A DNA stretch of 64,000 nucleotides from Microbulbifer sp. VAAF005 (GTDB taxonomy: Bacteria; Pseudomonadota; Gammaproteobacteria; Pseudomonadales; Cellvibrionaceae), in the NCBI RefSeq assembly GCF_030012985.1, contig NZ_CP120233.1, positions 2,703,501-2,767,500 on the forward strand, given 5' to 3'. A program made the position numbers and the translations under genes. Positions 31,985-57,496 of the stretch are shown one piece after another (within the stretch, counting starts at the first letter, position 1; each line of letters begins with the position of its first letter). The notes beneath the pieces were generated by a model. That model was not told the DNA's origin. It made no database searches and saw nothing but the letters and a program-made list of their open reading frames with translations.

Positions 31985-34900
31985 TTAGTGCCCTGCACTG
32001 CCTCCATTAAAGTCCCCAAGATCTACAGCGATATCGCTGGGTGCATCGCTGGTACCCAGCTCCAGTTCAGCATCAAACTTAGGTGTGGTTTCCGCCTCCT
32101 CAGCAGCTGAAGCTACGGCAGGACTCAGCTCTCCAGACTTGAGACGCATCTCAGGGGAGTTCACTGCATCGACACCACTACTGTAAGGCTTCACAGCACT
32201 AAAGATCGCGGGGTCTACATGGCTGAAATCCTCTACCGCATTCTGAACTGCTGATTTGAGGCCCTGGGATGCCTGGGCACCAGCAACTGACTGCAGCTCG
32301 TCACCAGTACTGGTAACCGTCGGGATCTGGCCAATAAAGTCGGGCTCATAGTAACTGACGGAATAGATATCCAGTGTATTGGTGACATCCATGCGGAGAG
32401 GGTTAGTCGCCTCACCAATAATGGTCCACAGCTCAGTTTCTGTTCCCAGGGTCACAGCGGATGCAGTGATATGGGTATCTCCGTAAGTTTCAGCGGTCAG
32501 GATGCCAAAGCTGGAGCTGGCCAGGGAGACAGTGCCCCGCCCTGCATCGATCTCGTCAATCACAAGATCTCCAGCAGCGAGCACACTGATATCGATATCC
32601 GCGCCCGAAGTGGCAACACCCAGGACACTAACATCCGTCTCAATATCTACATCGCCACCAACAACCAGTTCGGCACGATCAGCGGTCAAGCTACCGCCGA
32701 TTGTGTCTGTTGAGCTGCTGGTGACATAAATATCGCCCTCACCATCGTAGCCCAACCGCATATCGCTGAACTGGAGTCCGGCCCCGTTTTTATTGAAGCT
32801 TTCGGATCTATTTCCGCCATCTTCAAAATCAAATGCACGATCGGTCAGGACGGTAATACTGTCAGAGGTGTTATCCAGATATTCGAAGCCTGTGAAGCTA
32901 AAGTTACCTACCTGGTTGCCACTGCTATAAATCTCCCAGGTAGCACCGGACAGGTTGTATTGGAAATCATCAGATCCGCCACCACCAGCAAGCTCTACAT
33001 CCTGGCCAATATCAGTTTCTACCGTCAGCAGGTCATTGCCAGCACCAAGGGAAATACTGTCAATCACAGTGCCGGAGAAGGTGACGGTGTCACTGCCTGC
33101 ACCAGTATCAATCCCGGTGAGTTCACCACCGTTTAAATTAAACTCGTCAGCACCTGAACCGGCAGTAATAGACTCGATACCGGTAATCGTGAGTGATTCC
33201 CCACCACTGGAAACTGTGTGTTCAGAGTCATTGATATCCCAGACGGCATCAATATCTGCACCATAAACAGTATCTGTGCCGGAACCTGCAGCAACACTAT
33301 CCAGGTCGGCAAACGTTACTCCGCCAATCGTCATGGTATCCAGAGCGCTAAACTCATACTCACCATCGATATCCTGGCCAATATAACTTCCCGCCCCTTC
33401 TACGAGTTCGAGGTTATCAAAATAGACGGTCAAGCCATTTACTTCAGCCTCTACACTGCCTTCGACAAGTGAGTTGCCGGAGCTCGTGGAGGTCCAGGTA
33501 GCGCCATCCGCACTAACGGTGTCGCTACCACCTGCGCCATCTACCGTTTCCAGCCCACTGAAGTCGATGCCCGCAACACTGATATCGCCATCGGAGCTAA
33601 GGGTAAAGTCATCGTCACTGTCAGTGGCCACCAGGGTGTCATTACTACCCGACGTATTTACTTCTTCAAGGCCGGTAAAACTGATGCCCGCAGTTTCCAG
33701 TGCCTGATCCCCCTGCAACTGGAACTCAGCAGAATCGTAGGTGTTTGTCAGGACGGAAGTGACCGCACTGGAAATGTTATAGAAGGACAGTGAGCCAGCA
33801 GCTACCTGGTTATCAGTACCCGTTAATGACAGGCCATCACTGTAGGCGCTGGCATCCAGGCTATCATCACCGCCATTGCCATCCACCGCAGACATGCCGG
33901 ATACGGTCATGCTGTAAACTTCTACATCCGCATCAGACTGGAGCACAAATGCATCATCATTGGTTGTAGCAACCAAATCTGCATTTACGGCGGTGAGATT
34001 ATCGATGTTGGTAAAAGTGATGCTGCTGTTAACGGCTTCGTTATCAGTTCCCGTGAGGCTCCAATCTGCACCGTCTGCACCAGTAGCAGTATCATCACCC
34101 GTTCGAGCGTTAATGGTACTCAATCCGGTAAAGGCGATACCGTAGCTGGTCGCGGCATTATCACCATCTATAGTGAAGCTATCCGCGCCAGTAGTGCCTA
34201 TCAGCGCTGAAGTCACGGCACTGACGATGCCATCAAAAGTCAGGCCAGCCACCGTTACCTGATTATCGGTGCCGGTAAGCCTCAAGCTATCGCTATAGGC
34301 GCTGGCGTCCAGGCTGTCATCACCACCCTGACCATCGACAGCAGACATACCGGAAACGGTCATGCTGTAGACTTCGATATCACCAGTCGACTGCAGCGTA
34401 AAGGCATCTGCACTGCTGCTTCCCAACAGATCGGCATCGGTTACAGCAAGGCTATCGACACCGGCGAAGCTAATGCCACTGCTGCTGGCTTCATTATCAT
34501 CCCCTTCCAGAGTCCAATCAGCACCGCTAGCGCCAATAACACTATCGCTGCCAGAGCCCGCCTCAACGGTATCCACCTCGGTAAAGTTAATTCCGGCGAC
34601 CTCTAAGGCATTATCACCGGTGATGGTGAAGCTATCCGCATCACTGGTACCGGTCAGCACTAAGGTCTCTGCATCTGAAATGCCGGAAAACACTAAGGTG
34701 CCGGCGCTGACTTTTTTATCCGTGTCGGTGAGGGTCAGGCCATCGGTAAAGTTCGTGGCATCCAGGATGTCATCACCATTGCCAACCACCTCGGACATGC
34801 CGGAGACCGTCATATCATTGACTTCGACATCGCCGCCAGAGGTTAGGAGAAACGTTTCTGTACTGTTGCTGTAACCCTCAAGGTTGGCATTGACGGTAAC

Positions 34901-37900
34901 CAGGGTTTCCACGCCGGTAAAGGTGATACCGTGATTGGTCGCCTCATTAGTATCGCTTCCCAGGACCCAGTTTTGACCGCTGGCCCCGGTGACACTGTCT
35001 GTGCCATCCATGGCGTTAACGCTGTCAATATCGCTGAAGGCTATCTGATTGGCCTTCAGGGCTTCATTGCCTGTTACCTCGAAGGTATCGTTCCCCGCCG
35101 AACCTTCCAGGTCACCGCCACTGACACTCTCAATATCGCTGAAGGTGATTGAGCTTGTAGTCGCCTCATAGTCATCACCAGTCAGGGTTACGGTGCTGAT
35201 CGCAGTAACACTGTCACTGCCTGTTCCCGCATCCCCCGCATCGACCGTGTCCACACTGCTAAAGTTGATGCTATTGGCAGTTAGGCTGTTATCACCGGTT
35301 ACGACGAAGCTATCTGCTGAATCAGAGCCTTCGAGGCTATCCGCAGTGACGCTTTCAATATCACTAAACGTAATTAAGTTCGTTTCGGCTTCATAGGCTG
35401 TGCCGGTCAGGGTTACGGTGCTGATCGCGGTAACACTGTCACTGCCGGTTCCCTCATCCCCGGCATCGACCGTGTCCACACTGCTAAAGTTGATGCTATT
35501 GGCAGTTAGGCTGTTATCACCGGTCACGACGAAGCTATCTGCTGAATCAGAGCCTTCGAGGCTATCCGCAGTGACGCTTTCAATATCACTAAACGTAATT
35601 AAGTTCGTTTCGGCTTCATTGGCTGTGCCGGTCAGGGATACGGTGCTGATCGCGGTAACACTGTCACTGCCTGTTCCCTCATCCCCCGCATCGACCGTGT
35701 CCACACTGCTAAAGTTGATGCTATTGGCAGTTAGGCTGTTATTACCGGTCACGACGAAGCTATCTGCTGAATCAGAGCCTTCGAGGCTATCCGCAGTGAC
35801 GCTTTCAATATCACTAAACGTAATTAAGTTCGTTTCGGCTTCATAGGCTGTGCCGGTCAGGGTTACGGTGCTGATCGCGGTAACACTGTCACTGCCGGTT
35901 CCCTCATCCCCGGCATCGACCGTGTCCACACTGCTAAAGTTGATGCTATTGGCAGTTAGGCTGTTATCACCGGTTACGACGAAGCTATCTGCTGAATCAG
36001 AGCCTTCAAGGCTATCCGCAGTGACGCTTTCAATATCACTAAACGTAATTAAGTTCGTTTCGGCTTCATTGGCTGTGCCGGTCAGGGATACGGTGCTGAT
36101 CGCGGTAACACTGTCACTGCCTGTTCCCTCATCCCCCGCATCGACCGTGTCCACACTGCTAAAGTTAATGCTATTGGCAGTTAGGCTGTTATCACCAGTT
36201 ACGACAAAGCTATCTGCTGAATCAGAGCCTTCGAGGCTATCCGCCGTGACGCTTTCAATATCACTAAACGTAATTAAGTTCGTTTCGGCTTCATTGGCTG
36301 TGCCGGTCAGGGATACGGTGTTGATCGCGGTAACACTGTCACTGCCTGTTCCCTCATCCCCCGCATCGACCGTGTCCACACTGCTAAAGTTGATGCTATT
36401 GGCAGTTAGGCTGTTATTACCGGTCACGACGAAGCTATCTGCCGAATCAGAGCCTTCGAGGCTATCCGCCGTGACGCTTTCAATATAACTAAACGTAATT
36501 GAGTTCGTTTCGGCTTCATTGGCTGTGCCGGTCAGGGTTACGGTGCTGATCGCGGTAACGCTGTCACTGCCTGTTCCCTCATCCCCGGCATTAACCGTGT
36601 CCACACTGCTAAAGTTGATGCTATTGGCAGTTAGGCTGTTATCACCGGTCACGACAAAGCTATCTGCTGAATCAGAGCCTTCGAGGCTATCCGCCGTGAC
36701 GCTTTCAATATCACTAAACGTAATTGAGTTCGTTTCGGCTTCATTGGCTGTGCCGGTCAGGGTTACGGTGCTGATCGCGGTAACGCTGTCACTGCCTGTT
36801 CCCTCATCCCCGGCATCGACCGTGTCCACACTGCTAAAGTTGATACTATTAGCAGTTAGGCTGTTATCACCGGTCACGACAAAGCTATCTGCTGAATCAG
36901 AGCCTTCGAGGCTATCCGCCGTGACGCTTTCAATATCACTAAACGTAATTAAGTTCGTTTCGGCTTCATAGGCTGTGCCGGTCAGGGTTACGGTGCTGAT
37001 CGCGGTAACGCTGTCACTGCCTGTTCCCTCATCCCCCGCATCGACCGTGTCCACACTGCTAAAGTTGATGCTATTGGCAGTTAGGCTGTTATCACCGGTT
37101 ACGACAAAGCTATCTGCTGAATCAGAGCCTTCGAGGCTATCCGCAGTGACGCTTTCAATATCACTAAACGTAATTAAGTTCGTTTCGGCTTCATTGGCTG
37201 TGCCGGTCAGGGATACGGTGCTGATCGCGGTAACACTGTCACTGCCTGTTCCCTCATCCCCGGCATCGACCGTCGTCACGCTGGTAAAGCTGATATTTGC
37301 AGCATCCAAGGCGTTATCACCGGTGATGGTGAAGCTATCCGCATCACTGGTACCGGTCAGGGCTAAGGTCTCTGCATCCGAAATGCCGGAAAATACCAGG
37401 GTGCCGGCGCTGACTTCATTAGTGCTACCGGTGAGGGTCAGGCCATCGGTAAAGTTCGTGGCATCCAGGCTGTCACTACCGTCGCCAACCACCTCTGACA
37501 TGTCGTAAACCGTCATATCATTGACTTCGACATCGCCGTCGGAGGTCAGAACAAACGCATCCGCATTGCTGCTACCCTCAAGGTTGGCACTCACGGCAAC
37601 CAGGCTTTCCACACCGCTGAAAGTAATACTGCTATTGGTTGCTTTGTTATCTTCAGTAGTCAGGGCCCAGTTTGCACCACTGGCACCAGTCACACTATCG
37701 TCACCGTCTGCGGCATCAATAGTAGTGCCAAATCCTGTCACAGTAATCTCATTGGCTGTGACTTCTGTAGCGCTCACTACGACAAAAGTATCGTTATTGC
37801 TAGAGCCGGCCAGGGTGCCGGCAGCCGTAATACTTTCAATATCGCTAAAGGTAATGGAGCTTGAGGTTGCTTCATTATCATTGCCGGTCAGGCTTACGGT

Positions 37901-40900
37901 GCTGGTCGCAGTAACACTGTCACTGCCTGTTCCCTCATCCCCAGCCTTAACTGTCGTCACGCTGGTAAAGCTGATATTTGCAGCATCCAGGGCGTTATCA
38001 CCGGTGATGGTGAAGCTATCCGCATCACTGGTACCGGTCAGCACTAAGGTCTCTGCATCTGAAATGCCGGAAAACACTAAGGTGCCGGCGCTGACTTTTT
38101 TATCCGTGTCGGTGAGGGTCAGGCCATCGGTAAAGTTCGTGGCATCCAGGCTGTCACTACCATTGCCAACCACCGCTAACATACCGGAAACCGACATCTC
38201 ATTGACTTCGACATCGCCGTCGGAGGTCAGAACAAACGCTTCTGCACTAGAGGTACTCACAAGGTTGGCATTGACGGCAACCAGGGTTTCTACGCCGGTA
38301 AAGGTGATACCGTAGTTGGTCGCCTCATAATCATCGCTTCCCAGGGTCCAGTTTTGACCGCTAGCCCCGGTGACACTGTCTGTGCCAGCCATGGCGTTAA
38401 CGCTGTCAATATTGCTGAAGGCAATCTGATTGGCCTTCAGGGCTTCATTGCCTGTTACCTCGAAGGTATCGCTCAACCCCGAACCTTCCAGGTCACCGCC
38501 ACTGACACTCTCAATATCGCTGAAGGTGATTGAGTTTGTAGTCGCCTCATAGTCATCACCAGTCAGGGTTACGGTGCTGATCGCGGTAACGCTGTCACTG
38601 CCTGTTCCCTCATCCCCGGCATCGACCGTGTCCACACTGCTAAAGTTGATGCTATTGGCAGTTAGGCTGTTATTACCGGTCACGACGAAGCTATCTGCTG
38701 AATCAGAGCCTTCGAGGCTATCCGCCGTGACGCTTTCAATATCACTAAACGTAATTGAGTTCGTTTCGGCTTCATAGGCTGTGCCGGTCAGGGTTACGGT
38801 GCTGATCGCGGTAACGCTGTCACTGCCTGTTCCCTCATCCCCGGCATCGACCGTGTCCACACTGCTAAAGTTGATGCTATTGGCAGTTAGGCTGTTATCA
38901 CCGGTTACGACGAAGCTATCTGCTGAATCAGAGCCTTCAAGGCTATCCGCAGTGACGCTTTCAATATCACTAAACGTAATTAAGTTCGTTTCGGCTTCAT
39001 TGGCTGTGCCGGTCAGGGATACGGTGCTGATCGCGGTAACGCTGTCACTGCCTGTTCCCTCATCCCCCGCATCGACCGTGTCCACACTGCTAAAGTTAAT
39101 GCTATTGGCAGTTAGGCTGTTATCACCAGTTACGACAAAGCTATCTGCTGAATCAGAGCCTTCGAGGCTATCCGCCGTGACGCTTTCAATATCACTAAAC
39201 GTAATTAAGTTCGTTTCGGCTTCATTGGCTGTGCCGGTCAGGGATACGGTGTTGATCGCGGTAACACTGTCACTGCCTGTTCCCTCATCCCCCGCATCGA
39301 CCGTGTCCACACTGCTAAAGTTGATGCTATTGGCAGTTAGGCTGTTATTACCGGTCACGACGAAGCTATCTGCCGAATCAGAGCCTTCGAGGCTATCCGC
39401 CGTGACGCTTTCAATATAACTAAACGTAATTGAGTTCGTTTCGGCTTCATTGGCTGTGCCGGTCAGGGTTACGGTGCTGATCGCGGTAACGCTGTCACTG
39501 CCTGTTCCCTCATCCCCGGCATTAACCGTGTCCACACTGCTAAAGTTGATGCTATTGGCAGTTAGGCTGTTATCACCGGTCACGACAAAGCTATCTGCTG
39601 AATCAGAGCCTTCGAGGCTATCCGCCGTGACGCTTTCAATATCACTAAACGTAATTGAGTTCGTTTCGGCTTCATTGGCTGTGCCGGTCAGGGTTACGGT
39701 GCTGATCGCGGTAACGCTGTCACTGCCTGTTCCCTCATCCCCGGCATCGACCGTGTCCACACTGCTAAAGTTGATACTATTAGCAGTTAGGCTGTTATCA
39801 CCGGTCACGACAAAGCTATCTGCTGAATCAGAGCCTTCGAGGCTATCCGCCGTGACGCTTTCAATATCACTAAACGTAATTAAGTTCGTTTCGGCTTCAT
39901 AGGCTGTGCCGGTCAGGGTTACGGTGCTGATCGCGGTAACGCTGTCACTGCCTGTTCCCTCATCCCCCGCATCGACCGTGTCCACACTGCTAAAGTTGAT
40001 GCTATTGGCAGTTAGGCTGTTATCACCGGTTACGACAAAGCTATCTGCTGAATCAGAGCCTTCGAGGCTATCCGCAGTGACGCTTTCAATATCACTAAAC
40101 GTAATTAAGTTCGTTTCGGCTTCATTGGCTGTGCCGGTCAGGGATACGGTGCTGATCGCGGTAACACTGTCACTGCCTGTTCCCTCATCCCCGGCATCGA
40201 CCGTCGTCACGCTGGTAAAGCTGATATTTGCAGCATCCAAGGCGTTATCACCGGTGATGGTGAAGCTATCCGCATCACTGGTACCGGTCAGGGCTAAGGT
40301 CTCTGCATCCGAAATGCCGGAAAATACCAGGGTGCCGGCGCTGACTTCATTAGTGCTACCGGTGAGGGTCAGGCCATCGGTAAAGTTCGTGGCATCCAGG
40401 CTGTCACTACCGTCGCCAACCACCTCTGACATGTCGTAAACCGTCATATCATTGACTTCGACATCGCCGTCGGAGGTCAGAACAAACGCATCCGCATTGC
40501 TGCTACCCTCAAGGTTGGCACTCACGGCAACCAGGCTTTCCACACCGCTGAAAGTAATACTGCTATTGGTTGCTTTGTTATCTTCAGTAGTCAGGGCCCA
40601 GTTTGCACCACTGGCACCAGTCACACTATCGTCACCGTCTGCGGCATCAATAGTAGTGCCAAATCCTGTCACAGTAATCTCATTGGCTGTGACTTCTGTA
40701 GCGCTCACTACGACAAAAGTATCGTTATTGCTAGAGCCGGCCAGGGTGCCGGCAGCCGTAATACTTTCAATATCGCTAAAGGTAATGGAGCTTGAGGTTG
40801 CTTCATTATCATTGCCGGTCAGGCTTACGGTGCTGGTCGCAGTAACACTGTCACTGCCTGTTCCCTCATCCCCAGCCTTAACTGTCGTCACGCTGGTAAA

Positions 40901-43900
40901 GCTGATATTTGCAGCATCCAGGGCGTTATCACCGGTGATGGTGAAGCTATCCGCATCACTGGTACCGGTCAGCACTAAGGTCTCTGCATCTGAAATGCCG
41001 GAAAACACTAAGGTGCCGGCGCTGACTTTTTTATCCGTGTCGGTGAGGGTCAGGCCATCGGTAAAGTTCGTGGCATCCAGGCTGTCACTACCATTGCCAA
41101 CCACCTCCGACATGTCGTAAACCGTCATATCATTGACTTCGACATCGCCGTCGGAGGTCAGAACAAACGCATCCGCATTGCTGCTACCCTCAAGGTTGGC
41201 ACTCACGGCAACCAGGCTTTCCACACCGCTGAAAGTAATACTGCTATTGGTTGCTTTGTTATCTTCAGTAGTCAGGGCCCAGTTTGCACCACTGGCACCA
41301 GTCACACTATCGTCACCGTCTGCGGCATCAATAGTAGTGCCAAATCCTGTCACAGTAATCTCATTGGCTGTGACTTCTGTAGCGCTCACTACGACAAAAG
41401 TATCGTTATTGCTAGAGCCGGCCAGGGTGCCGGCAGCCGTAATACTTTCAATATCGCTAAAGGTAATGGAGCTTGAGGTTGCTTCATTATCATTGCCGGT
41501 CAGGCTTACGGTGCTGATCGCGGTAACGCTGTCACTGCCGGTTCCCTCATCCCCGGCATCGACCGTGTCCACACTGCTAAAGTTGATGCTATTGGCAGTT
41601 AGGCTGTTATCACCGGTTACGACGAAGCTATCTGCTGAATCAGAGCCTTCAAGGCTATCCGCAGTGACGCTTTCAATATCACTAAACGTAATTAAGTTCG
41701 TTTCGGCTTCATTGGCTGTGCCGGTCAGGGATACGGTGCTGATCGCGGTAACACTGTCACTGCCTGTTCCCTCATCCCCCGCATCGACCGTGTCCACACT
41801 GCTAAAGTTGATGCTATTGGCAGTTAGGCTGTTATTACCGGTCACGACGAAGCTATCTGCTGAATCAGAGCCTTCGAGGCTATCCGCAGTGACGCTTTCA
41901 ATATCACTAAACGTAATTAAGTTCGTTTCGGCTTCATAGGCTGTGCCGGTCAGGGTTACGGTGCTGATCGCGGTAACACTGTCACTGCCGGTTCCCTCAT
42001 CCCCGGCATCGACCGTGTCCACACTGCTAAAGTTGATGCTATTGGCAGTTAGGCTGTTATCACCGGTTACGACGAAGCTATCTGCTGAATCAGAGCCTTC
42101 AAGGCTATCCGCAGTGACGCTTTCAATATCACTAAACGTAATTAAGTTCGTTTCGGCTTCATTGGCTGTGCCGGTCAGGGATACGGTGCTGATCGCGGTA
42201 ACACTGTCACTGCCTGTTCCCTCATCCCCCGCATCGACCGTGTCCACACTGCTAAAGTTGATGCTATTGGCAGTTAGGCTGTTATCACCGGTCACGACGA
42301 AGCTATCTGCTGAATCAGAGCCTTCGAGGCTATCCGCCGTGACGCTTTCAATATCACTAAACGTAATTGAGTTCGTTTCGGCTTCATTATCATTGCCGGT
42401 CAGGGTGACGGTGCTGATCGCGGTAACGCTGTCACTGCCTGTTCCCTCATCCCCGGCATTAACCGTGTCCACACTGCTAAAGTTGATGCTATTGGCAGTT
42501 AGGCTGTTATCACCGGTCACGACAAAGCTATCTGCTGAATCAGAGCCTTCGAGGCTATCCGCCGTGACGCTTTCAATATAACTAAACGTAATTGAGTTCG
42601 TTTCGGCTTCATTATCATTGCCGGTCAGGGTGACGGTGCTGATCGCGGTAACGCTGTCACTGCCTGTTCCCTCATTCCCGGCATTAACCGTGTCCACACT
42701 GCTAAAGTTGATGCTATTGGCAGTTAGGCTGTTATCACCGGTCACGACAAAGCTATCTGCTGAATCAGAGCCTTCAAGGCTATCCGCCGTGACGCTTTCA
42801 ATATAACTAAACGTAATTGAGTTCGTTTCGGCTTCATTGGCTGTGCCGGTCAGGGCTACGGTGCTGATCGCGGTAACGCTGTCACTGCCTGTTCCCTCAT
42901 CCCCGGCATTAACCGTGTCCACACTGCTAAAGTTGATACTATTAGCAGTTAAGCTGTTATCACCGGTCACGACAAAGCTATCTGCTGAATCAGAGCCTTC
43001 GAGGCTATCCGCCGTGACGCTTTCAATATAACTAAACGTAATTGAGTTCGTTTCGGCTTCATTATCATTGCCGGTCAGGGTGACGGTGCTGATCGCGGTA
43101 ACGCTGTCACTGCCTGTTCCCGCATCCCCGGCATTAACCGTGTCCACACTGCTAAAGTTGATGCTATTAGCAGTTAGGCTGTTATCACCGGTCACGACGA
43201 AGCTATCTGCTGAATCAGAGCCTTCAAGGCTATCCGCAGTGACGCTTTCAATATAACTAAACGTAATTGAGTTCGTTTCGGCTTCATTGGCTGTGCCGGT
43301 CAGGGTTACGGTGCTGATCGCGGTAACGCTGTCACTGCCTGTTCCCTCATCCCCGGCATTAACCGTGTCCACACTGCTAAAGTTGATGCTATTAGCAGTT
43401 AGGCTGTTATCACCGGTCACGACGAAGCTATCTGCTGAATCAGAGCCTTCGAGGCTATCCGCCGTGACGCTTTCAATATAACTAAACGTAATTGAGTTCG
43501 TTTCGGCTTCATTATCATTGCCGGTCAGGGTGACGGTGCTGATCGCGGTAACGCTGTCACTGCCTGTTCCCTCATCCCCGGCATTAACCGTGTCCACACT
43601 GCTAAAATTGATACTATTAGCAGTTAAGCTGTTATCACCGGTCACGACAAAGCTATCTGCTGAATCAGAGCCTTCGAGGCTATCCGCCGTGACGCTTTCA
43701 ATATAACTAAACGTAATTGAGTTCGTTTCGGCTTCATTATCATTGCCGGTCAGGGTGACGGTGCTGATCGCGGTAACGCTGTCACTGCCTGTTCCCGCAT
43801 CCCCGGCATTAACCGTGTCCACACTGCTAAAGTTGATACTATTAGCAGTTAGGCTGTTATCACCGGTCACGACAAAGCTATCTGCTGAATCAGAGCCTTC

Positions 43901-46372
43901 GAGGCTATCCGCCGTGACGCTTTCAATATAACTAAACGTAATTGAGTTCGTTTCGGCTTCATTGGCTGTGCCGGTCAGGGTGACGGTGCTGATCGCGGTA
44001 ACGCTGTCACTGCCTGTTCCCGCATCCCCCGCATCGACCGTGTCCACACTGCTAAAGTTGATGCTATTGGCAGTTAAGCTGTTATCACCGGTTACGACAA
44101 AGCTATCTGCTGAATCAGAGCCTTCGAGGCTATCCGCCGTGACGCTTTCAATATAACTAAACGTAATTGAGTTCGTTTCGGCTTCATTGGCTGTGCCGGT
44201 CAGGGTGACGGTGCTGATCGCGGTAACGCTGTCACCGTCTGCTCCCCCATCCCCTGCATCAACCTTGGTCACATCACTAAACCTGATGCCTTTGGCCCTT
44301 AGACTGTTATCACCCGTCACCTCGAAGCTATCTGCTGAATCAGAGCCTTCGAGGCTATCAACACTCATAGTGTCAATATTACTAAACGTAATTAAGTTTG
44401 TTTCGGCTTCATAGTCATTGTCGGTCAGGGTCGCAGTGCTGATTGCTGTGATATTGTTATCACCACCACCCAAATCAACTTCTTCAATACCAGAAAAGGA
44501 AATGGTATCGAGGGAAAATGCGTTGTCACCAGTAATGGTTATATCATCGTTATCATCTGACAATGTGAATTTATCTGAATCACTGCTGCCTGTAATAGTA
44601 CCGGCATTACTTACAGTAAGGTCGCCCAACGTATTTTCTGTTGCATCAGATCCGGTATCACTATATGAGTCATAACCTACGGTTAAATCAAAATTATAAA
44701 CATCGATAGTGCCTGAGTTAGTAAAAGCTCCGCCGGCCTGAATAATCAGGTCACTACTACCAGTGGCCTTAATAGTGGCTTTTGAATCGACTGTCACATC
44801 ACTGTAAGAAGTTAGCGTGAGTGTTGTATCCTCGCTCCAGCTAATACTTTCATTAACTAGGATGCCGTAGCCCCCATCATTTCTTGACTCTCCTGTATCA
44901 GTGACATTAATTACATAATTATTATTCTCTAGTCCTTCTTCAATTGATCCTGCGGTAATACAGTTCGACGCATCGCCACAGTCACCGTCACCCACGATAT
45001 CCATCCAACCCGGGTCCAACAACCAGGTGCCGGTCTCCCCATCCCCATAAGCAAGGGTGGAAACAAACATGTTGTCTTCATCCAGATTCAGGTAAATCTT
45101 GCCGGAAGTTTCTACCAGGCCGCCATCACCGCCGTCTTCCCCTGACTCGGCGAGAATCGTACCGCCAAAATCAGTAGTGTCATCGGCCCAGACAATAACG
45201 GTGCCACCATCGGCATCGCCAACACCGCTGGCATCGATATTGGCTTCTGCCGTGACCATGGTGGTTTCGGCATTACGAACATCTTCATTATTCCCCTGGT
45301 AGTCGCCGCCAATAAGGACTTCACCACCGGAGGAAGTACCACGGGCATCAATATTCCCGCTGACAACAACTTCATCACCCAAAACAGCAACGTAACCGCC
45401 ACTGCCAGAGTCAGCGGCTACCGAAATATCTCCGCTGTGCTCAGCAAAATCGCCCTCCAGGACAACCTCACCACCGGCGCTGCCGGATGCATCCAGAGTT
45501 CCACTATTGACGACCCCGGAACCCGATCCAAACAGGCGGATCTTGCCTCCGCTGGTATCAATACCACGAGCGGTTATTGTGCCTTCATTGTTTACTGCGG
45601 CAGTAAACAGGTCGCCGGAAACACTGGCTTCCATCACAACTTGGGCGCCGTCAATGGAACCTTCGTTTAATACGGCACTATCGAGGCCGAGGTCATTTTC
45701 CATAACCTCTTTAGTTACTTTGAGGCCGATCAAGCCATCCGCATCAAAAGTTAATAAAGCTTCATCAGCTGCTGCCAGGGTAACAAGTTCTGCACTGATT
45801 AAACCGCTAGAGGCATTTGTTACCTGCTTACCAACCAGGACTGCGCTGGACGCATTAATTACACCCCGGTTAATAACAACCCCTGAGGAACCCGACTCGC
45901 CTTTAAAGGCAAAATCGCCGTTCATAAAGTCTTCAGGGCTCATATCGAGCCCGGACGCGGTTATCGCACCGACATTAACTGTGGCTGTTTCGGTAAAGAG
46001 AACTCCTCGCGGGTTCACCAGGATAACGTGGCCGTTGGCTTCTATCGCACCTTGGATCGTGGTGACATCCTGATCCAGGATTCGGTTCAGTACGATAGAG
46101 GAGGAGTCCGGCTGCAGGAATTGAACCAGTTCCTCTTCACTTAAATTAAAAGAATCCCAGTCGATTGATAACAGGTCTGTTACCTGGTCGACCGTTGTTG
46201 TGGCCCCATCGACATCGATGGTGCCGCTACCGCCGGTTACCACACCGCCTTCAGGTCCAGCATGAACCATCGGACTGATCAGCCCTGCAAACAGGCCTGC
46301 ATAGGCAAAACTTGATACCTTAATGGCACTTGCTAATTTTCTTAACTCAAGCTTTTTGTCTTTGGCTTTCAT
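31985..46372 (-). CDS. Giant two-partner secretion adhesin (TpsA, filamentous haemagglutinin type)
   Basis: 4795 residues. Signal peptide 1-38 (cut after MVHA), then a TPS secretion domain (about 39-300) with SSIVLNRILDQDVTTIQG and VNPRGVLFTE, a variant of the NPNG motif. Much of the rest, from about residue 650 to 4200, consists of 75-residue modules (typified by SVTADSLEGSDSADSFVVTG and LTANSINFSSVDTVNAGDEG), broken by variant blocks (VSATEVTANEITVTGF; SDGDVEVNDMTVYDM). Asp/Ser/Thr-rich and very acidic, probably a long beta-helix. No protease or toxin domain is seen at the C-terminus (ends DLGDFNGGSAGH). It lies 59 bp behind the tpsB partner. Probably exported to the cell surface for attachment or biofilm. 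Confidence 0.93.
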   Translation of the reverse strand: MKAKDKKLELRKLASAIKVSSFAYAGLFAGLISPMVHAGPEGGVVTGGSGTIDVDGATTTVDQVTDLLSIDWDSFNLSEEELVQFLQPDSSSIVLNRILDQDVTTIQGAIEANGHVILVNPRGVLFTETATVNVGAITASGLDMSPEDFMNGDFAFKGESGSSGVVINRGVINASSAVLVGKQVTNASSGLISAELVTLAAADEALLTFDADGLIGLKVTKEVMENDLGLDSAVLNEGSIDGAQVVMEASVSGDLFTAAVNNEGTITARGIDTSGGKIRLFGSGSGVVNSGTLDASGSAGGEVVLEGDFAEHSGDISVAADSGSGGYVAVLGDEVVVSGNIDARGTSSGGEVLIGGDYQGNNEDVRNAETTMVTAEANIDASGVGDADGGTVIVWADDTTDFGGTILAESGEDGGDGGLVETSGKIYLNLDEDNMFVSTLAYGDGETGTWLLDPGWMDIVGDGDCGDASNCITAGSIEEGLENNNYVINVTDTGESRNDGGYGILVNESISWSEDTTLTLTSYSDVTVDSKATIKATGSSDLIIQAGGAFTNSGTIDVYNFDLTVGYDSYSDTGSDATENTLGDLTVSNAGTITGSSDSDKFTLSDDNDDITITGDNAFSLDTISFSGIEEVDLGGGDNNITAISTATLTDNDYEAETNLITFSNIDTMSVDSLEGSDSADSFEVTGDNSLRAKGIRFSDVTKVDAGDGGADGDSVTAISTVTLTGTANEAETNSITFSYIESVTADSLEGSDSADSFVVTGDNSLTANSINFSSVDTVDAGDAGTGSDSVTAISTVTLTGTANEAETNSITFSYIESVTADSLEGSDSADSFVVTGDNSLTANSINFSSVDTVNAGDAGTGSDSVTAISTVTLTGNDNEAETNSITFSYIESVTADSLEGSDSADSFVVTGDNSLTANSINFSSVDTVNAGDEGTGSDSVTAISTVTLTGNDNEAETNSITFSYIESVTADSLEGSDSADSFVVTGDNSLTANSINFSSVDTVNAGDEGTGSDSVTAISTVTLTGTANEAETNSITFSYIESVTADSLEGSDSADSFVVTGDNSLTANSINFSSVDTVNAGDAGTGSDSVTAISTVTLTGNDNEAETNSITFSYIESVTADSLEGSDSADSFVVTGDNSLTANSINFSSVDTVNAGDEGTGSDSVTAISTVALTGTANEAETNSITFSYIESVTADSLEGSDSADSFVVTGDNSLTANSINFSSVDTVNAGNEGTGSDSVTAISTVTLTGNDNEAETNSITFSYIESVTADSLEGSDSADSFVVTGDNSLTANSINFSSVDTVNAGDEGTGSDSVTAISTVTLTGNDNEAETNSITFSDIESVTADSLEGSDSADSFVVTGDNSLTANSINFSSVDTVDAGDEGTGSDSVTAISTVSLTGTANEAETNLITFSDIESVTADSLEGSDSADSFVVTGDNSLTANSINFSSVDTVDAGDEGTGSDSVTAISTVTLTGTAYEAETNLITFSDIESVTADSLEGSDSADSFVVTGNNSLTANSINFSSVDTVDAGDEGTGSDSVTAISTVSLTGTANEAETNLITFSDIESVTADSLEGSDSADSFVVTGDNSLTANSINFSSVDTVDAGDEGTGSDSVTAISTVSLTGNDNEATSSSITFSDIESITAAGTLAGSSNNDTFVVVSATEVTANEITVTGFGTTIDAADGDDSVTGASGANWALTTEDNKATNSSITFSGVESLVAVSANLEGSSNADAFVLTSDGDVEVNDMTVYDMSEVVGNGSDSLDATNFTDGLTLTDTDKKVSAGTLVFSGISDAETLVLTGTSDADSFTITGDNALDAANISFTSVTTVKAGDEGTGSDSVTATSTVSLTGNDNEATSSSITFSDIESITAAGTLAGSSNNDTFVVVSATEVTANEITVTGFGTTIDAADGDDSVTGASGANWALTTEDNKATNSSITFSGVESLVAVSANLEGSSNADAFVLTSDGDVEVNDMTVYDMSEVVGDGSDSLDATNFTDGLTLTGSTNEVSAGTLVFSGISDAETLALTGTSDADSFTITGDNALDAANISFTSVTTVDAGDEGTGSDSVTAISTVSLTGTANEAETNLITFSDIESVTADSLEGSDSADSFVVTGDNSLTANSINFSSVDTVDAGDEGTGSDSVTAISTVTLTGTAYEAETNLITFSDIESVTADSLEGSDSADSFVVTGDNSLTANSINFSSVDTVDAGDEGTGSDSVTAISTVTLTGTANEAETNSITFSDIESVTADSLEGSDSADSFVVTGDNSLTANSINFSSVDTVNAGDEGTGSDSVTAISTVTLTGTANEAETNSITFSYIESVTADSLEGSDSADSFVVTGNNSLTANSINFSSVDTVDAGDEGTGSDSVTAINTVSLTGTANEAETNLITFSDIESVTADSLEGSDSADSFVVTGDNSLTANSINFSSVDTVDAGDEGTGSDSVTAISTVSLTGTANEAETNLITFSDIESVTADSLEGSDSADSFVVTGDNSLTANSINFSSVDTVDAGDEGTGSDSVTAISTVTLTGTAYEAETNSITFSDIESVTADSLEGSDSADSFVVTGNNSLTANSINFSSVDTVDAGDEGTGSDSVTAISTVTLTGDDYEATTNSITFSDIESVSGGDLEGSGLSDTFEVTGNEALKANQIAFSNIDSVNAMAGTDSVTGASGQNWTLGSDDYEATNYGITFTGVETLVAVNANLVSTSSAEAFVLTSDGDVEVNEMSVSGMLAVVGNGSDSLDATNFTDGLTLTDTDKKVSAGTLVFSGISDAETLVLTGTSDADSFTITGDNALDAANISFTSVTTVKAGDEGTGSDSVTATSTVSLTGNDNEATSSSITFSDIESITAAGTLAGSSNNDTFVVVSATEVTANEITVTGFGTTIDAADGDDSVTGASGANWALTTEDNKATNSSITFSGVESLVAVSANLEGSSNADAFVLTSDGDVEVNDMTVYDMSEVVGDGSDSLDATNFTDGLTLTGSTNEVSAGTLVFSGISDAETLALTGTSDADSFTITGDNALDAANISFTSVTTVDAGDEGTGSDSVTAISTVSLTGTANEAETNLITFSDIESVTADSLEGSDSADSFVVTGDNSLTANSINFSSVDTVDAGDEGTGSDSVTAISTVTLTGTAYEAETNLITFSDIESVTADSLEGSDSADSFVVTGDNSLTANSINFSSVDTVDAGDEGTGSDSVTAISTVTLTGTANEAETNSITFSDIESVTADSLEGSDSADSFVVTGDNSLTANSINFSSVDTVNAGDEGTGSDSVTAISTVTLTGTANEAETNSITFSYIESVTADSLEGSDSADSFVVTGNNSLTANSINFSSVDTVDAGDEGTGSDSVTAINTVSLTGTANEAETNLITFSDIESVTADSLEGSDSADSFVVTGDNSLTANSINFSSVDTVDAGDEGTGSDSVTAISTVSLTGTANEAETNLITFSDIESVTADSLEGSDSADSFVVTGDNSLTANSINFSSVDTVDAGDEGTGSDSVTAISTVTLTGTAYEAETNLITFSDIESVTADSLEGSDSADSFVVTGNNSLTANSINFSSVDTVDAGDEGTGSDSVTAISTVSLTGTANEAETNLITFSDIESVTADSLEGSDSADSFVVTGDNSLTANSINFSSVDTVDAGDEGTGSDSVTAISTVTLTGTAYEAETNLITFSDIESVTADSLEGSDSADSFVVTGDNSLTANSINFSSVDTVDAGDAGTGSDSVTAISTVTLTGDDYEATTSSITFSDIESVSGGDLEGSAGNDTFEVTGNEALKANQIAFSDIDSVNAMDGTDSVTGASGQNWVLGSDTNEATNHGITFTGVETLVTVNANLEGYSNSTETFLLTSGGDVEVNDMTVSGMSEVVGNGDDILDATNFTDGLTLTDTDKKVSAGTLVFSGISDAETLVLTGTSDADSFTITGDNALEVAGINFTEVDTVEAGSGSDSVIGASGADWTLEGDDNEASSSGISFAGVDSLAVTDADLLGSSSADAFTLQSTGDIEVYSMTVSGMSAVDGQGGDDSLDASAYSDSLRLTGTDNQVTVAGLTFDGIVSAVTSALIGTTGADSFTIDGDNAATSYGIAFTGLSTINARTGDDTATGADGADWSLTGTDNEAVNSSITFTNIDNLTAVNADLVATTNDDAFVLQSDADVEVYSMTVSGMSAVDGNGGDDSLDASAYSDGLSLTGTDNQVAAGSLSFYNISSAVTSVLTNTYDSAEFQLQGDQALETAGISFTGLEEVNTSGSNDTLVATDSDDDFTLSSDGDISVAGIDFSGLETVDGAGGSDTVSADGATWTSTSSGNSLVEGSVEAEVNGLTVYFDNLELVEGAGSYIGQDIDGEYEFSALDTMTIGGVTFADLDSVAAGSGTDTVYGADIDAVWDINDSEHTVSSGGESLTITGIESITAGSGADEFNLNGGELTGIDTGAGSDTVTFSGTVIDSISLGAGNDLLTVETDIGQDVELAGGGGSDDFQYNLSGATWEIYSSGNQVGNFSFTGFEYLDNTSDSITVLTDRAFDFEDGGNRSESFNKNGAGLQFSDMRLGYDGEGDIYVTSSSTDTIGGSLTADRAELVVGGDVDIETDVSVLGVATSGADIDISVLAAGDLVIDEIDAGRGTVSLASSSFGILTAETYGDTHITASAVTLGTETELWTIIGEATNPLRMDVTNTLDIYSVSYYEPDFIGQIPTVTSTGDELQSVAGAQASQGLKSAVQNAVEDFSHVDPAIFSAVKPYSSGVDAVNSPEMRLKSGELSPAVASAAEEAETTPKFDAELELGTSDAPSDIAVDLGDFNGGSAGH
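33900..44450 (-). repeat. Array of about 45 near-identical 225-bp coding modules
   Basis: Successive copies are 225 bp apart over much of the array (for example unit starts near 43068, 43518 and 43743) and differ at only a few bases. Variable positions recur in mosaic combinations (N/D before AGD; YI/DI before ESVT; T or ND after TG). This is the pattern left by unequal exchange and gene conversion. Coordinates are approximate at the edges, and the module count is estimated from length. Confidence 0.85.
35630..41104 (-). repeat. Higher-order duplication of about 2.54 kb inside the adhesin
   Basis: Bases 35630-38173 recur, nearly unchanged, at 38561-41104, an offset of 2931 bp (977 codons). 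The match includes several 75-residue modules and the variant block containing TVYDMSEVVG. A partial third copy of the variant block begins near 41133. The module count in front of the block differs between copies by two units (offset 3381 further left), showing independent later change. Confidence 0.85.
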
Positions 46373-46431
46373 ACCAGCACCTTGCGAAGAGGAACCTTGC
46401 TACTTTTAAGTTTCGAGGAAACAGTATTTGT

Positions 46432-48393
46432 TCAGTTATAAAAAACGGAGAAATCAGCGTAGACGGTGGGTTCGTCTTCACCAATTGCAATATTCGTTAT
46501 CGAGGAACTCGACATAATTGGCCAAGCGACAGAGACCTTACTTGAGAAGCTGTCACTCCAATTCATCTTAAACAGCATTCCGCCTCCGGAGAATCGAGCC
46601 CAGTCATCCTCCACAGTCTCCTCATAGTTATTCACATAGCCATAGCCCACATCGGCAATCAGTGCTACTTGGAAAATGTCATTTAAACGCTGATTAAACA
46701 GGATCGGGTTCATGAACTCAGGGAAGTTGAGGTACCACTCTGCGGTAACCACTGCCCCAATATCTGCAGAGAAATCTCTTGCTGAGAACGCGCGCACGCC
46801 ATTGGCGCCACCGAGGGATAATTGCTCAAACCCTGGCAGATTACTCTCACTGTATTGAGCTCTTCCTTTCACGATTAACCTTGAACGATCATCAGTAAAA
46901 GGCATGGGTAAAAAGAGCAGTGAGCTGGTGTTAATTGCCAGTTTATTAAAGTCGTCCCCTCTTCCCTCTTCAACCGTATTTTGATGCTCACCATATTGTG
47001 CTGTAGCACTCAAAACATTGAGCATTGGAATGAAGCCACTGGAAAGGCTATCCATATAAAAACCGACTTCACTGCCATAGACGTGGTCATTAGTGAATTC
47101 AATAATGCCATCAAGGTCTGATTTCTTTTCTGTCAGACCGAAAGAGCCAGTGAGATTGAAATCCCTGGAGCGTCGGAATTTATGGTCTAAAGACAATGCA
47201 TAACTTTTATTAACACCGGAAATTTCCAGTAAGTTAATTACGTTATCTTCATCGGTCTCATCGTAAAGACTAAATTCATTATGATCGGCAGATATTTCCA
47301 GGCGGGTGCGAGGGCCAAATAACGGGAAGCTATATCTGAACTGGCCGAGGTCAGAACCAAAATCGTCATCTGACTCAGGGTTTGATTTCAAATATCCCAG
47401 GGTCAATGCATCACCAAACCCAAGGGGGTTCAACCAGTCGACAGTTGCGTAAAGTCGCTCACTACCGGTATACAGTGAACCGTGGTTATCAGCCCTGAAA
47501 GTTGCACGCCAGGAGTCTGATTCGCGCACTTTTAAATTGAGCTTGGTTTCACCAGGGTTATCCCCCGCACTGAAATACCCAGTAACATTTAATCCGGGCA
47601 AGTCGTTAAGTAAATATAACCCTTCCTCGATATTCTCATGATTTACCAGGTGGCCGCGCTGCTCTTCGAAGGGCTCCGCCAGTTTTTCGTCTGAGTAATT
47701 TTCGTTATCTTCTGCAACAACCTGTCCGAGGAGTCCCTCTTGTACGGTAAGAGTGACCACCCCATTTTCTACATCTTGAGCGGGAATTTGCACTTGGGCC
47801 AAAAACAGCCCCTGGCGACGATAGAAACTTGTCAGTTCTGCGGCGATCTCTTCGAGATCTCCATAACTTAAGCCTCTTTCTCTATTTTGTTTTTCAATTA
47901 CACCGACCAGTTTCTTGAGCTCCGCTGGCCCCAAGCCACCTGGATTAAACTGGGCGTTCATGTTGCCGAGCAATATTGCCAGCTCTTCAAGGTTATCTAC
48001 GGTGTAACCGCTAGCGAGAATTTGATCCTCTTTCATGAATTTTGCCCGAAGATCCTCTGCCATTTCCTCTACAACTTCTCGGGAAATACCAAACTCTGGA
48101 AACTCTTCTAAGCGGTGAAACTTGAATTCTTTTACAGTGATCCGCGGTCCCTGGTTCCTCTCGGAGACCTCAGGGATTTCAGTGTTTAAGTTGGGATCTT
48201 CTGCTTCATAAGTACGCTGCAGGAAATCTTTAGTTACATCCACCTCAGTAATTGTGGAGGTATCCTGATTAAAGGCTTCCCGGACCCGGCTGCGAAAACT
48301 GGATCCATCATCCTGGGCAAAAACCGGTACTTGCGATACAAGAAAGCCAGCACCAATAAATAATGCCAACTTACTTTTTTCTAGCCCAAGCAT
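46432..48393 (-). CDS. Two-partner secretion transporter (TpsB/FhaC/ShlB family)
   Basis: 653 residues. Outer-membrane Omp85-type pore that secretes the adjacent adhesin. Signal peptide 1-26 (VPVFAQ). POTRA-like domains at about 85-275 (ITVKEFKFHRLEEFPEFGIS; GVVTLTVQEGLLGQVVAED), then a C-terminal beta barrel with the loop-6-type motif GGANGVRAFSARDF (VRAF in place of the common VRGY/F). GGGGG precedes the ATG. Same strand as, and just upstream of, tpsA, as in most two-partner systems; the pairing is specific by position. Confidence 0.94.
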   Translation of the reverse strand: MLGLEKSKLALFIGAGFLVSQVPVFAQDDGSSFRSRVREAFNQDTSTITEVDVTKDFLQRTYEAEDPNLNTEIPEVSERNQGPRITVKEFKFHRLEEFPEFGISREVVEEMAEDLRAKFMKEDQILASGYTVDNLEELAILLGNMNAQFNPGGLGPAELKKLVGVIEKQNRERGLSYGDLEEIAAELTSFYRRQGLFLAQVQIPAQDVENGVVTLTVQEGLLGQVVAEDNENYSDEKLAEPFEEQRGHLVNHENIEEGLYLLNDLPGLNVTGYFSAGDNPGETKLNLKVRESDSWRATFRADNHGSLYTGSERLYATVDWLNPLGFGDALTLGYLKSNPESDDDFGSDLGQFRYSFPLFGPRTRLEISADHNEFSLYDETDEDNVINLLEISGVNKSYALSLDHKFRRSRDFNLTGSFGLTEKKSDLDGIIEFTNDHVYGSEVGFYMDSLSSGFIPMLNVLSATAQYGEHQNTVEEGRGDDFNKLAINTSSLLFLPMPFTDDRSRLIVKGRAQYSESNLPGFEQLSLGGANGVRAFSARDFSADIGAVVTAEWYLNFPEFMNPILFNQRLNDIFQVALIADVGYGYVNNYEETVEDDWARFSGGGMLFKMNWSDSFSSKVSVAWPIMSSSSITNIAIGEDEPTVYADFSVFYN

Positions 48394-48473
48394 ATTTCCC
48401 CCAGTCTTAATCTCTAAATTTTTAATCTAACCAACTTGACTATCGTATCGACATTCGCTGGTAATTGTTTAAC

Positions 48474-51694: not shown

Positions 51695-52183
51695 ATGGCT
51701 ATTTACATGAACTACAACGACAAAGCTGTAAAAGGTAATGTTACTGCTTCTGGCTACGAAGACTGGATTGAAATTGACAATCTGCACTTCGGCGTTGGCC
51801 GTGGCATCACCATGGAAGCCGGCGCTATGGCAAACCGTGAAGCTTCTCGCCCAAGCCTGAGTGAATTAACTTTCAGCAAGCGCTTGGACGCAGCTTCCGG
51901 CGGCCTGCTCAAAGCTTCTGTAACTGGTGACGAAGGCGTTAAAGTAGAGATCCACGTAGTTCAAACCGGTGCGAACTCTGTTGAGAAGTATGCTGTTTAC
52001 AAACTGGAGAACGTCCTGATTTCTTCTTACAGCACTTCAGCTTCTGCTGGCGGTCCTCCCTCTGAGTCTGTTGCTCTGAGCTACGCCAAAATCGAAACTG
52101 AGCTCAACCACGCTGACAAGAGCAACAAGAACCCAACCAGCATGCGTGTTGGATACTGCCTGGAAACTGCCAAGGCCCTGTAA
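51695..52183 (+). CDS. hcp: T6SS tube protein Hcp
   Basis: 162 residues. Forms the hexameric rings of the secreted T6SS inner tube. IYMNYNDKAVKGNVTASGYEDW at the start, MEAGAMANREASRPSLSEL and KTEL-like end blocks match the Hcp1 family. No signal peptide and no C-terminal effector extension. GAGGGA precedes the ATG. Codon use is strikingly even and GC-rich in the third position relative to the AT-rich flanks, suggesting high expression. Followed by two long hairpins before vgrG. Confidence 0.95.
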   Translation: MAIYMNYNDKAVKGNVTASGYEDWIEIDNLHFGVGRGITMEAGAMANREASRPSLSELTFSKRLDAASGGLLKASVTGDEGVKVEIHVVQTGANSVEKYAVYKLENVLISSYSTSASAGGPPSESVALSYAKIETELNHADKSNKNPTSMRVGYCLETAKAL

Positions 52184-56315: not shown

Positions 56316-56341
56316 ATAAAAACAAAAGGAGTAGATATATT

Positions 56342-57496
56342 ATGCTGAGTCCGAAATATACTGCAAAACTTGCTGCAGATACTTACCTGGTAAAAGAAAG
56401 CAGGACAAGGAAATTATTCTATGAATTGTATAAAAATGATTTTGACATAGATGAAAAAATAACAAACAAAATAGATGCCGAGGCCGGCGCTTTTATTTTC
56501 TTGAAAAGCACTGACGCAAGAGGCATAGCGACCCTAGGAAAAGGGCAACATAAAGGACAGGCTTTCTTTAGTATTTTAGGTACTGATAGCCTGTACGATC
56601 TATTAACAGACCTAAATACTGGAGTTAGGCGATTCCATACTGGTGGCGCTGTACACCAGGGATTTTATTATACTTTCGAATCTCTATTACCTCAGCTCGA
56701 AAGATTTGTACAAAACCTGCCTAGTGATATTCACACCATTAATTGCCTTGGTCACAGCCTTGGCGGAGCGATAGCTACACTTGCTGCAGATTGGCTATCA
56801 TCCAATACAGAAAAATCTATAAAACTGTATACGTTTGGTAGCCCAAGAGTTGGGCTTGACCACTTCGCAAGCGGCTGTAAACGCAAACTTAAATCCGAAA
56901 ATATTTATCGCGTTTACCATCGCGCAGACCCCGTTCCTATGGTCCCCACATGGCCGTTTATTCATGTTCCAAATGGTGGTACCGGGGATTTTGAATTACC
57001 GACCCCCAGCCACAACCCTGGAACTAATCACAGCAGTAAAACTTATGTAAAGTCTGTTTCCCCCAACGGAACCAGTCTAGATTGGGACACAGTAAGACTT
57101 AGAAAACCCAAAGGCAATATAGAAAAAAGCGTTGAAGCATGGTTAAGATCAGATGGAGTCCTATCCTTAACCTTAAATACAGCATGGATAGCTGGTGAAG
57201 CACTACTGTGGGTTCTTAAAAAGATAGCTCACCTTGCAGGAATTTCTCTGGTAGTGGCAGGTGGTACTACCTTCACGCTTCTCGATAGACTTGCGATCTT
57301 CCTACACAAGGCTTATGAAATCAGCAAGGACATCTCTTTCTGGGTATTGCGGCTTATCCGCAGATTAGCTCAGCTTATTGGTATAGCTGTTGTGGAGGGT
57401 GCCGATATCACTGTCTCCTTTATACGCATGATATTTTTACGCATGCACCATATGGTATCGGAATTGGTAATGAGAGCAGGCAGAGGCAACCAGTAA
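56342..57496 (+). CDS. Class 3 lipase, candidate T6SS effector
   Basis: 384 residues from ATG 56342 (behind AAAGGAG; an earlier TTG is possible). Lipase_3 fold: nucleophile elbow NCLGHSLGGAIATLAADW, FGSPRVGLDHF with the Asp region, HRADPVPMVPTW with the downstream His/Asp. No signal peptide, as expected for a T6SS substrate. The last 110 residues contain hydrophobic or amphipathic stretches (AWIAGEALLWVL, GISLVVAGGTTF, IGIAVVEGADI) that could bind membrane. Placed after vgrG-DUF6931-PAAR and next to an exported partner. Confidence 0.8.
   Translation: MLSPKYTAKLAADTYLVKESRTRKLFYELYKNDFDIDEKITNKIDAEAGAFIFLKSTDARGIATLGKGQHKGQAFFSILGTDSLYDLLTDLNTGVRRFHTGGAVHQGFYYTFESLLPQLERFVQNLPSDIHTINCLGHSLGGAIATLAADWLSSNTEKSIKLYTFGSPRVGLDHFASGCKRKLKSENIYRVYHRADPVPMVPTWPFIHVPNGGTGDFELPTPSHNPGTNHSSKTYVKSVSPNGTSLDWDTVRLRKPKGNIEKSVEAWLRSDGVLSLTLNTAWIAGEALLWVLKKIAHLAGISLVVAGGTTFTLLDRLAIFLHKAYEISKDISFWVLRLIRRLAQLIGIAVVEGADITVSFIRMIFLRMHHMVSELVMRAGRGNQ

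Follow-up and report, generated by a model that had tools for sequence, protein, structure and literature searches.

Here we describe tpsA, a gene for a giant two-partner-secretion (TPS) exoprotein that lies beside a type VI secretion system (T6SS) locus in Microbulbifer sp. VAAF005. The window is a stretch of 64,000 nucleotides (positions 2,703,501 to 2,767,500 of contig NZ_CP120233.1) from this marine genome, which is a single contig of 5,397,440 bp. The reading we favour, with roughly even confidence, is that TpsA and its array of 48 modules act as a cell-surface contact fibre that brings neighbouring cells within reach of the T6SS weapon; the array would fold as a beta rod, the rod would bind other cells and the binding would serve the T6SS. 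The original prediction, which drew attention to the array, was right in outline about exchange among modules but overstated their number and uniformity, and was silent on the replacement of the array core between conserved flanks, on the setting among T6SS and kinase genes, and on a higher-order duplication. The core replacement and the genomic setting are more telling than the array itself.

Judged by its domains and its neighbour, TpsA is a TPS exoprotein: it has a TPS secretion domain, an NPXG-motif domain (TIGR01901, E 2e-19) and an adjacent transporter, TpsB, and the secretion domain together with the neighbouring tpsB predicts secretion to the cell surface via TpsB. PF05860 was detected on scanning the N-terminal part alone and was missed when the whole protein was scanned. 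The putative signal peptide has a charged start, a hydrophobic stretch and an end in VHA ahead of GPEGG. A lipobox cysteine is absent from the N-terminus; because the sole cysteines of the protein are residues 465 and 471, both upstream of the array, TpsA would not have a lipoprotein N-terminus. The original prediction saw no cell-binding domain outside the modules and proposed the repeat itself as the functional surface. This part is not supported: TpsA also has an EtpA-like N-domain and a conserved C-terminal block, and its sequence does not single out one part as the binding one. In a PDB sequence search aa 39-424 match EtpA, a TPS adhesin of enterotoxigenic E. coli (8cpk, E 2.3e-47), and the predicted N-domain model (residue 1 = aa 39; ~121-530 mostly above pLDDT 70, weak near 172 and 322) matches EtpA 8vbb (Foldseek E 1.8e-16). 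The two proteins share the TPS domain and an N-terminal beta-helix region; in sequence, the long EtpA chain 8vba is matched over TpsA aa 33-307 only, and the alignment to 8vbb, although 1106 columns long, has a root-mean-square deviation of 16.1 and extends into low-confidence residues. EtpA presumably has repeats of its own and binds flagella; unlike EtpA, TpsA is encoded beside a T6SS locus. The C-terminal block, around GLKSAVQN...DPAIFSAVKPYS, is kept across 23 sequences of the genus, and the C-tail has no Pfam or NCBIfam family at trusted score.

The association with the T6SS is visible throughout the genus. On the minus strand the kinase gene, tpsB and tpsA follow one another, separated by 80 and 59 bp, tpsA being third. 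TpsB, the kinase and the T6SS protein ClpV occur in the identical 37 of 48 Microbulbifer genomes, and the other 11 are without all three at the thresholds used (TpsB >=58% identity, kinase E 1e-60, ClpV >=80% identity). Because the three presence patterns are identical, T6SS and TPS genes change together in all six independent presence changes on a tree of the 48 genomes (6/6, sign test p 0.031), the changes being counted on the tree of one gene, ClpB, and not on a species tree. The kinase-TpsB distance is below 250 bp in 36/37 genomes; in the other, G007, ClpV sits between them. Of 19 loci compared in relatives, 18 have TpsB next to TpsA; the one that does not is a second TPS locus (G023b). 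In one Microbulbifer genome, G056, the T6SS ClpV and the kinase-TPS genes are far apart on a single 4.43-Mb contig and both are kept.

The association also extends beyond Microbulbifer. In a sample of 293 genomes from the order, 19 carry this TpsB, 82 carry TssC and 17 carry both, so that TssC accompanies TpsB in 17/19 genomes and is found in 65/274 without it; with Microbulbifer excluded the counts are 11/13 and 65/273. To judge from these genomes, TPS and T6SS genes are linked in other families too, in different arrangements: the TPS genes adjoin hcp in Microbulbifer and an FHA gene in G291 and G031, and in G150 and G222 they adjoin the phosphatase gene, the kinase gene lying beyond the T6SS genes at their opposite end. 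In G067 and G114 the order kinase-tpsB-tpsA is found without T6SS genes in the stretches fetched.

The array itself was predicted as about 45 near-identical, acidic 225-bp modules. A tandem array is indeed present: Tandem Repeats Finder (TRF) reports a 225-bp unit at 35181-44443 (minus strand, score 9259) inside the single 4795-aa tpsA frame. The count and the uniformity fared less well, as a hidden Markov model (HMM) scan gives 48 full modules, this being the copy number as assembled in a single-contig assembly, of which only 27 are near-identical, that is, with a length of 75 aa and an identity of at least 85% to a manually typed consensus. These 27 amount to 22 different DNA sequences and 15 different protein sequences; at an 80% cut-off 31/49 stretches (>=20 bits) would count as near-identical. 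The remaining 21 modules are less alike (72-77 aa), some being half near-identical and half divergent, and after aa 4209 the module HMM finds four weak partial stretches above 0 bits, reaching aa 4434. Modules below 20 bits, and in some tables partly matched ones, were excluded from the comparisons below. The acidic character was borne out, aa 752-4209 (3458 residues) containing 587 Asp+Glu against 15 Lys+Arg, one His, no Cys and no Pro. A search with one module against the whole 5.4-Mb contig returned 34 DNA matches, all within the array. The near-identical modules form three blocks separated by less similar ones, and a higher-order duplication (offset 2931 bp, high identity across ~2.6 kb, 2064 bp exact) covers much of blocks 2 and 3 and the divergent modules preceding them. 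Pfam matches to LnmK_N_HDF, YfbK_C, KCT2 and NDK within the array were rejected as repeat or composition matches, being short and mutually discordant, although YfbK_C and LnmK_N_HDF exceed their cut-offs in one array piece.

The mosaic differences and recent, repeated exchange proposed for the modules are both borne out. Among 25 strict copies (20 haplotypes, 24 informative sites) 102/276 site pairs fail the four-gamete test, implying a minimum of at least nine recombination events (Rm >=9). The failure rate rises with distance, not strictly monotonically: 23/92 at <=40 bp, then 25/79, 27/51, 16/40 and finally 11/14 beyond 160 bp. This rise fits exchange and is not expected from repeated mutation alone. 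The strict copies differ at a mean of 0.114 of synonymous sites (maximum 0.283) and 0.023 of other sites. Because the proportions of synonymous differences (pS) separating the flanks from a relative, G010, are 0.29 and 0.32, much of the near-identical set is younger than the split from that relative. The modules are also far from equally diverged at synonymous sites, the outcome named beforehand as refuting recent homogenisation: across the 48 modules the best within-array matches have a median pS of 0.08, against 0.88 for the best matches to G010. The median best within-array DNA match is 1.00 here and 0.98 in G010, each array having its own near-identical sets. Given a pS of up to 0.283 and a ratio of non-synonymous to synonymous differences (pN/pS) of ~0.2 among near-identical copies, purifying selection also keeps the modules alike.

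Comparison with G010, which carries a 5896-aa tpsA at the same place, reveals a core that differs from its surroundings. The N-domain is 96-97% and the C-tail 95% identical, with pS of 0.29 and 0.32; the pS of RNase R, which is encoded downstream of tpsA together with tRNA-Leu, is 0.26. The core modules match at only ~0.56 DNA identity, with pS of 0.70-0.93, which as raw proportions are saturated, and none of the 65 G010 modules scores as the near-identical type at 90 bits. The C-edge modules starting at aa 3985, 4062 and 4137 have pS of 0.48, 0.54 and 0.26; by this measure the last three modules are orthologous to their G010 counterparts and the core is not. Furthermore, the locus itself is, on its synonymous divergence, mosaic and exchanged between species. 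TpsB and the kinase have pS of 0.54 and 0.56 to G010, about twice the values for RNase R and the N-domain, and G050, which falls outside the clade of the window in the one-gene ClpB tree, has a pS of 0.74 in RNase R but 0.35 in the TpsA N-domain.

Across the genus, tpsA was fetched from 29 of the 37 genomes with TpsB, eight being left out, and 22 genes were intact, ranging (from the first ATG) from 2866 to 7926 aa. The non-intact genes comprise five that end at contig ends (G004, G006, G009, G013, G017), one with an N run (G024) and one broken into frames of 5206 and 1365 aa (G003, L025/L026); because 5/29 fetched loci end at a contig end, variation in tpsA is probably partly hidden in draft assemblies. 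Lengths vary among species and, as the original prediction suggested for strains, among very close lineages: P0004, P0005 and P0007, with C-tails 98.3-99.3% and N-domains 92-97% identical, are 6066, 6140 and 6476 aa long. A comparison of modules in six close proteins out of 22 near homologues, at the protein level only, distinguishes two module palettes, palette I in P0002, P0004 and P0009 and palette II in P0001 and P0007. P0007 and P0004 are 99.3% identical in the C-tail and 96.7% in the N-domain, yet against P0004 69 of the 71 P0007 modules reach no more than 0.56-0.69, and the last two reach 0.89 and 0.77. Few modules support the palette II label for P0007, most of its amplified ones scoring 0.57-0.70 against either palette. 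P0005 looks like a chimera of palettes II and I: its first 12 modules are not clearly of either palette, in aa 1543-2296 6/11 modules lie nearer to palette II and none nearer to palette I, and from aa 2449 on 34/42 are closer to palette I and none to palette II (margin 0.1). Two palettes and an apparent chimera occur among lineages with C-tails 90-99% identical, and the array cores appear to have recombined between strains. Because P0007, whose own amplified sets differ in type (28 and 20 of 71), shares one module 82% identical to the consensus of the window, related strains draw on a common module stock but amplify different members of it.

Under the contact-fibre reading, TpsB would thread the acidic chain outwards and the modules would fold outside the cell into a long beta rod. 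If a beta-helix rises ~0.48 nm per 19-25 residues, as we assume, the 48 modules would span ~70-90 nm. Each species would gain its own near-identical modules by unequal exchange and by duplication of blocks within the strand, and the core would be swapped when strains recombine via shared flanks and module tracts. The flanks and C-edge modules would stay, presumably as carriers of secretion and anchoring functions. Outside the cell the fibre would hold neighbouring cells for the T6SS, as TasL is reported to do in Vibrio fischeri (PMC9040878). TasL is there a putative lipoprotein of >380 kDa in a T6SS island, with five fibronectin-type repeats and a proposed reach of up to 70 nm, that mediates the contact needed for killing (PMC9040878). 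Both proteins are very large, of surface type and encoded in a T6SS island, but TpsA, going by that description, is set apart as a TPS exoprotein that has a TpsB partner of its own and repeats of a different type, and would resemble TasL in role and not in family. The streptococcal periscope proteins, in which SHIRT domains are reported to project a ligand-binding domain (PMC8201768), likewise have near-identical tandem modules and vary in gene length, as TpsA does between species. TpsA differs from them as so described in being a Gram-negative TPS protein whose module sets are replaced wholesale between relatives and in which no tip ligand-binding domain is shown. TpsA does have a conserved N-domain and C-block. 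Among open-licence titles and abstract openings we found no literature linking a TPS exoprotein to this T6SS locus.

Several observations weigh against this reading. ClpV lies within 20 kb of the kinase in 33/37 genomes, and because the T6SS, kinase and TPS genes are mostly neighbours, their joint loss may be plain physical linkage; in three Microbulbifer drafts (G006, G016, G058) the kinase and ClpV are on separate contigs. A T6SS without this TPS system is common (the 65/274 genomes above), and the Fisher values for the association (p 1.1e-8 across the order, p 1.3e-5 with Microbulbifer excluded) are too small, related genomes not being independent. Outside Microbulbifer, TssC lies within ~21 kb of TpsB in only 5/13 genomes (G291, G031, G150, G222 and G242); the two are far apart or on other contigs in G062, G067, G076, G115, G137 and G178, and G114 and G218 have TpsB and no TssC at E 1e-100. 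The rod is likewise uncertain: AlphaFold, run on 11 in-register rows, gave an all-beta array model at a pLDDT of 57.7, which had no Foldseek match in the PDB at E <=0.001, and three modules alone found PDB chains at a best E of 0.66. At the N-terminal end of the array, the first module (aa 605) has the first module of G010 as its best match, but at 69% aa identity and a pS of 0.71, so that the N-edge is not clearly conserved. Finally, palette and candidate effector type showed no correlation in the two relatives compared: the lipase resembling that of the window is 74% identical in G050 and 37% in G010, both of palette I.

The chief alternative, which we consider a real if somewhat doubtful possibility, is that TpsA serves more generally in surface adhesion or in the biofilm matrix, as a fibre that varies in length, a periscope-like stalk whose nearness to the T6SS reflects hitchhiking on a mobile island. 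The length differences among the 22 intact genes would suit such a stalk, the nearest solved relative of the N-domain is the adhesin EtpA, and the locus moves between species, as the N-domain of G050 indicates. Physical linkage could by itself account for the joint losses, and 6/11 genomes outside the genus that have both systems carry them unlinked in the assembly. Hitchhiking sits less easily with a linkage that survives different gene orders and other families, with G056, which keeps both systems although they are separated, and with an association that persists outside Microbulbifer. A fibre coat could instead shield its maker against incoming T6SS attack, predators or phage and give no aid to its own attack. 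We think this improbable: the strong negative charge and large size of TpsA would suit a shield, and fast core turnover would also fit escape from recognition, yet protection needs no T6SS of one's own and TssC is present in 17/19 genomes with the TPS genes.

Less probable still is an assembly artefact, in which the copy number of the array is wrong and the block duplication an effect of assembly. The 2064-bp exact repeat could mislead a short-read assembly, and tpsA stops at a contig end in five draft relatives among the 29 fetched; the genome studied here is, however, on a single contig, intact genes of 2.9-7.9 thousand aa are also present in relatives assembled into long contigs, among which G010 and G050 each carry their own repeats in tpsA, and divergent palettes and mosaic copies cannot stem from assembly. 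A TPS exoprotein used between bacteria also invites comparison with CdiA/CdiB, and the TPS pair, the giant size and a locus devoted to antagonism would fit contact-dependent inhibition with delivery of a C-terminal toxin. Unlike CdiA, TpsA is without a variable toxin C-terminus or an evident immunity gene: its C-terminal block is conserved across the genus and not polymorphic, no toxin family reaches trusted score in the C-tail, and the adjoining genes are tRNA-Leu and RNase R. In the gap past tpsA the longest same-strand frames, of 83 aa (TTG start) and 61 aa (GTG start), are not gene-like, the former overlapping the tRNA gene as well as the tpsA end, so there is no convincing gene of immunity size. 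The toxin reading is disfavoured on these grounds, and we hold it to be extremely improbable.

Within the contact-fibre reading, the array core might further act as a swappable recognition surface, the palettes being alternative specificities that choose neighbours for the T6SS. Whole cores would then be recombined between conserved flanks to change the partner, in the stalk, much as toxin tips are swapped elsewhere. We regard this extension as unlikely.

Table 1. Features of the tpsA region, in window coordinates
Feature	Position	Strand	Basis or remark
tpsA, giant TPS exoprotein	31985..46372	-	4795-aa open frame; calculated 482 kDa, pI 4.05
C-tail beyond full modules	31985..33745	-	non-repeat end with genus-wide conserved block
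C-terminal edge modules, aa 3985-4301	33470..34420	-	86-96% aa identity to palette I
Module array, 48 full modules, aa 605-4209	33746..44560	-	HMM scan of protein; TRF
Near-identical block 3, 9 copies	35102..37126	-	module HMM, consensus identity
2064-bp exact direct repeat, second copy	36111..38174	-	offset 2931 bp applied to first copy
Near-identical block 2, 7 copies	38483..40057	-	module HMM, consensus identity
2064-bp exact direct repeat, first copy	39042..41105	-	higher-order duplication
Near-identical block 1, 11 copies	41645..44119	-	module HMM, consensus identity
TPS secretion domain, aa 40-292	45497..46255	-	PF05860 E 2.2e-24
N-terminal 38 residues, signal-peptide-like	46259..46372	-	read by eye from sequence
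tpsB, outer-membrane transporter	46432..48393	-	PF03865 ShlB E 8.5e-25, PF08479 POTRA_2 E 5.4e-11
Ser/Thr kinase, PpkA-like	48474..51026	-	PF00069 E 4.6e-40; FGE-sulfatase-like C-terminal PF03781 E 2.2e-08
hcp, T6SS tube	51695..52183	+	PF05638 E 4.5e-33; divergent from kinase gene
vgrG, T6SS spike	52347..54254	+	PF05954, PF22178, PF04717
Class-3 lipase, candidate T6SS effector	56342..57496	+	PF01764 E 2.4e-27; role suggested by place
clpV (tssH)	57594..60260	-	AAA and ClpB domains; T6SS-locus position
tssG, tssF, tssE	60302..63698	-	T6SS locus

The kinase encoded next to tpsB is best read, from its sequence and surroundings, as a T6SS-type PpkA kinase that the TPS pair frequently accompanies. 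The reason is that T6SS genes are found near it even where this TPS system is missing: in three genomes lacking TpsB at E 1e-80 (G136, G252 and G329), TssC is no more than ~14 kb away. It has one hydrophobic helix-length stretch (~aa 368-389), a DFG motif at 244 and a catalytic loop read as HSDFKPGN. PpkA kinase, PppA phosphatase and Fha form a T6SS pathway. The single hydrophobic stretch and a T6SS locus with FHA and PP2C genes resemble the PpkA case; the FGE-sulfatase-like C-terminal domain and a tpsB next door in 36/37 Microbulbifer genomes do not. As a guess from its place beside tpsB, the kinase may also control the fibre. Terminators predicted on both strands of 46300-51800 number 5 against 5.7 expected by chance, a result that neither supports nor breaks an operon. 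In G050 the kinase gene is broken (G050:C1:1207492-1209971, the search result showing an in-frame TAA) and tpsB and tpsA are open.

The T6SS stretch of the window also contains a DUF6931 gene, and beyond the window the locus continues with TssC, an ImpA_N protein, TssM, DotU/TssL, TssK, TssJ, FHA proteins and a PP2C phosphatase. The DUF6795 and lipase genes (55836-57496) are 30% and 37% identical in G010; their neighbours (DUF6931, the gene at 54850-55143, VgrG and ClpV) are 95-100% identical there, and the pair is likely a swapped effector pair. Another fast-changing repeat gene lies near the island, encoding an RCC1-repeat protein (25460-27424, minus strand) with 126-bp tandem repeats; it is 72% identical in G010, where RNase R and the gene at 27986 are 97-98% identical. 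A Y1-transposase-like gene (L073:17222-17941) still lies next to the T6SS phosphatase gene in G150 and G222 at ~70% identity, an unusual degree of conservation for such a gene.

It is not settled how cells armed with a T6SS select their targets and keep hold of them, and the putative fibre described here is a concrete, deletable candidate for that role: it accompanies the T6SS within one genus and is encoded next to it again in further families of the order. The separation of the two systems in G056 would be useful for telling linkage from function. The array offers a clean natural experiment in concerted evolution, as the N-domain, the C-tail and the last modules appear orthologous between relatives and the core appears to have been replaced. 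If the core does set the binding partner, these bacteria would change specificity by swapping the stalk.

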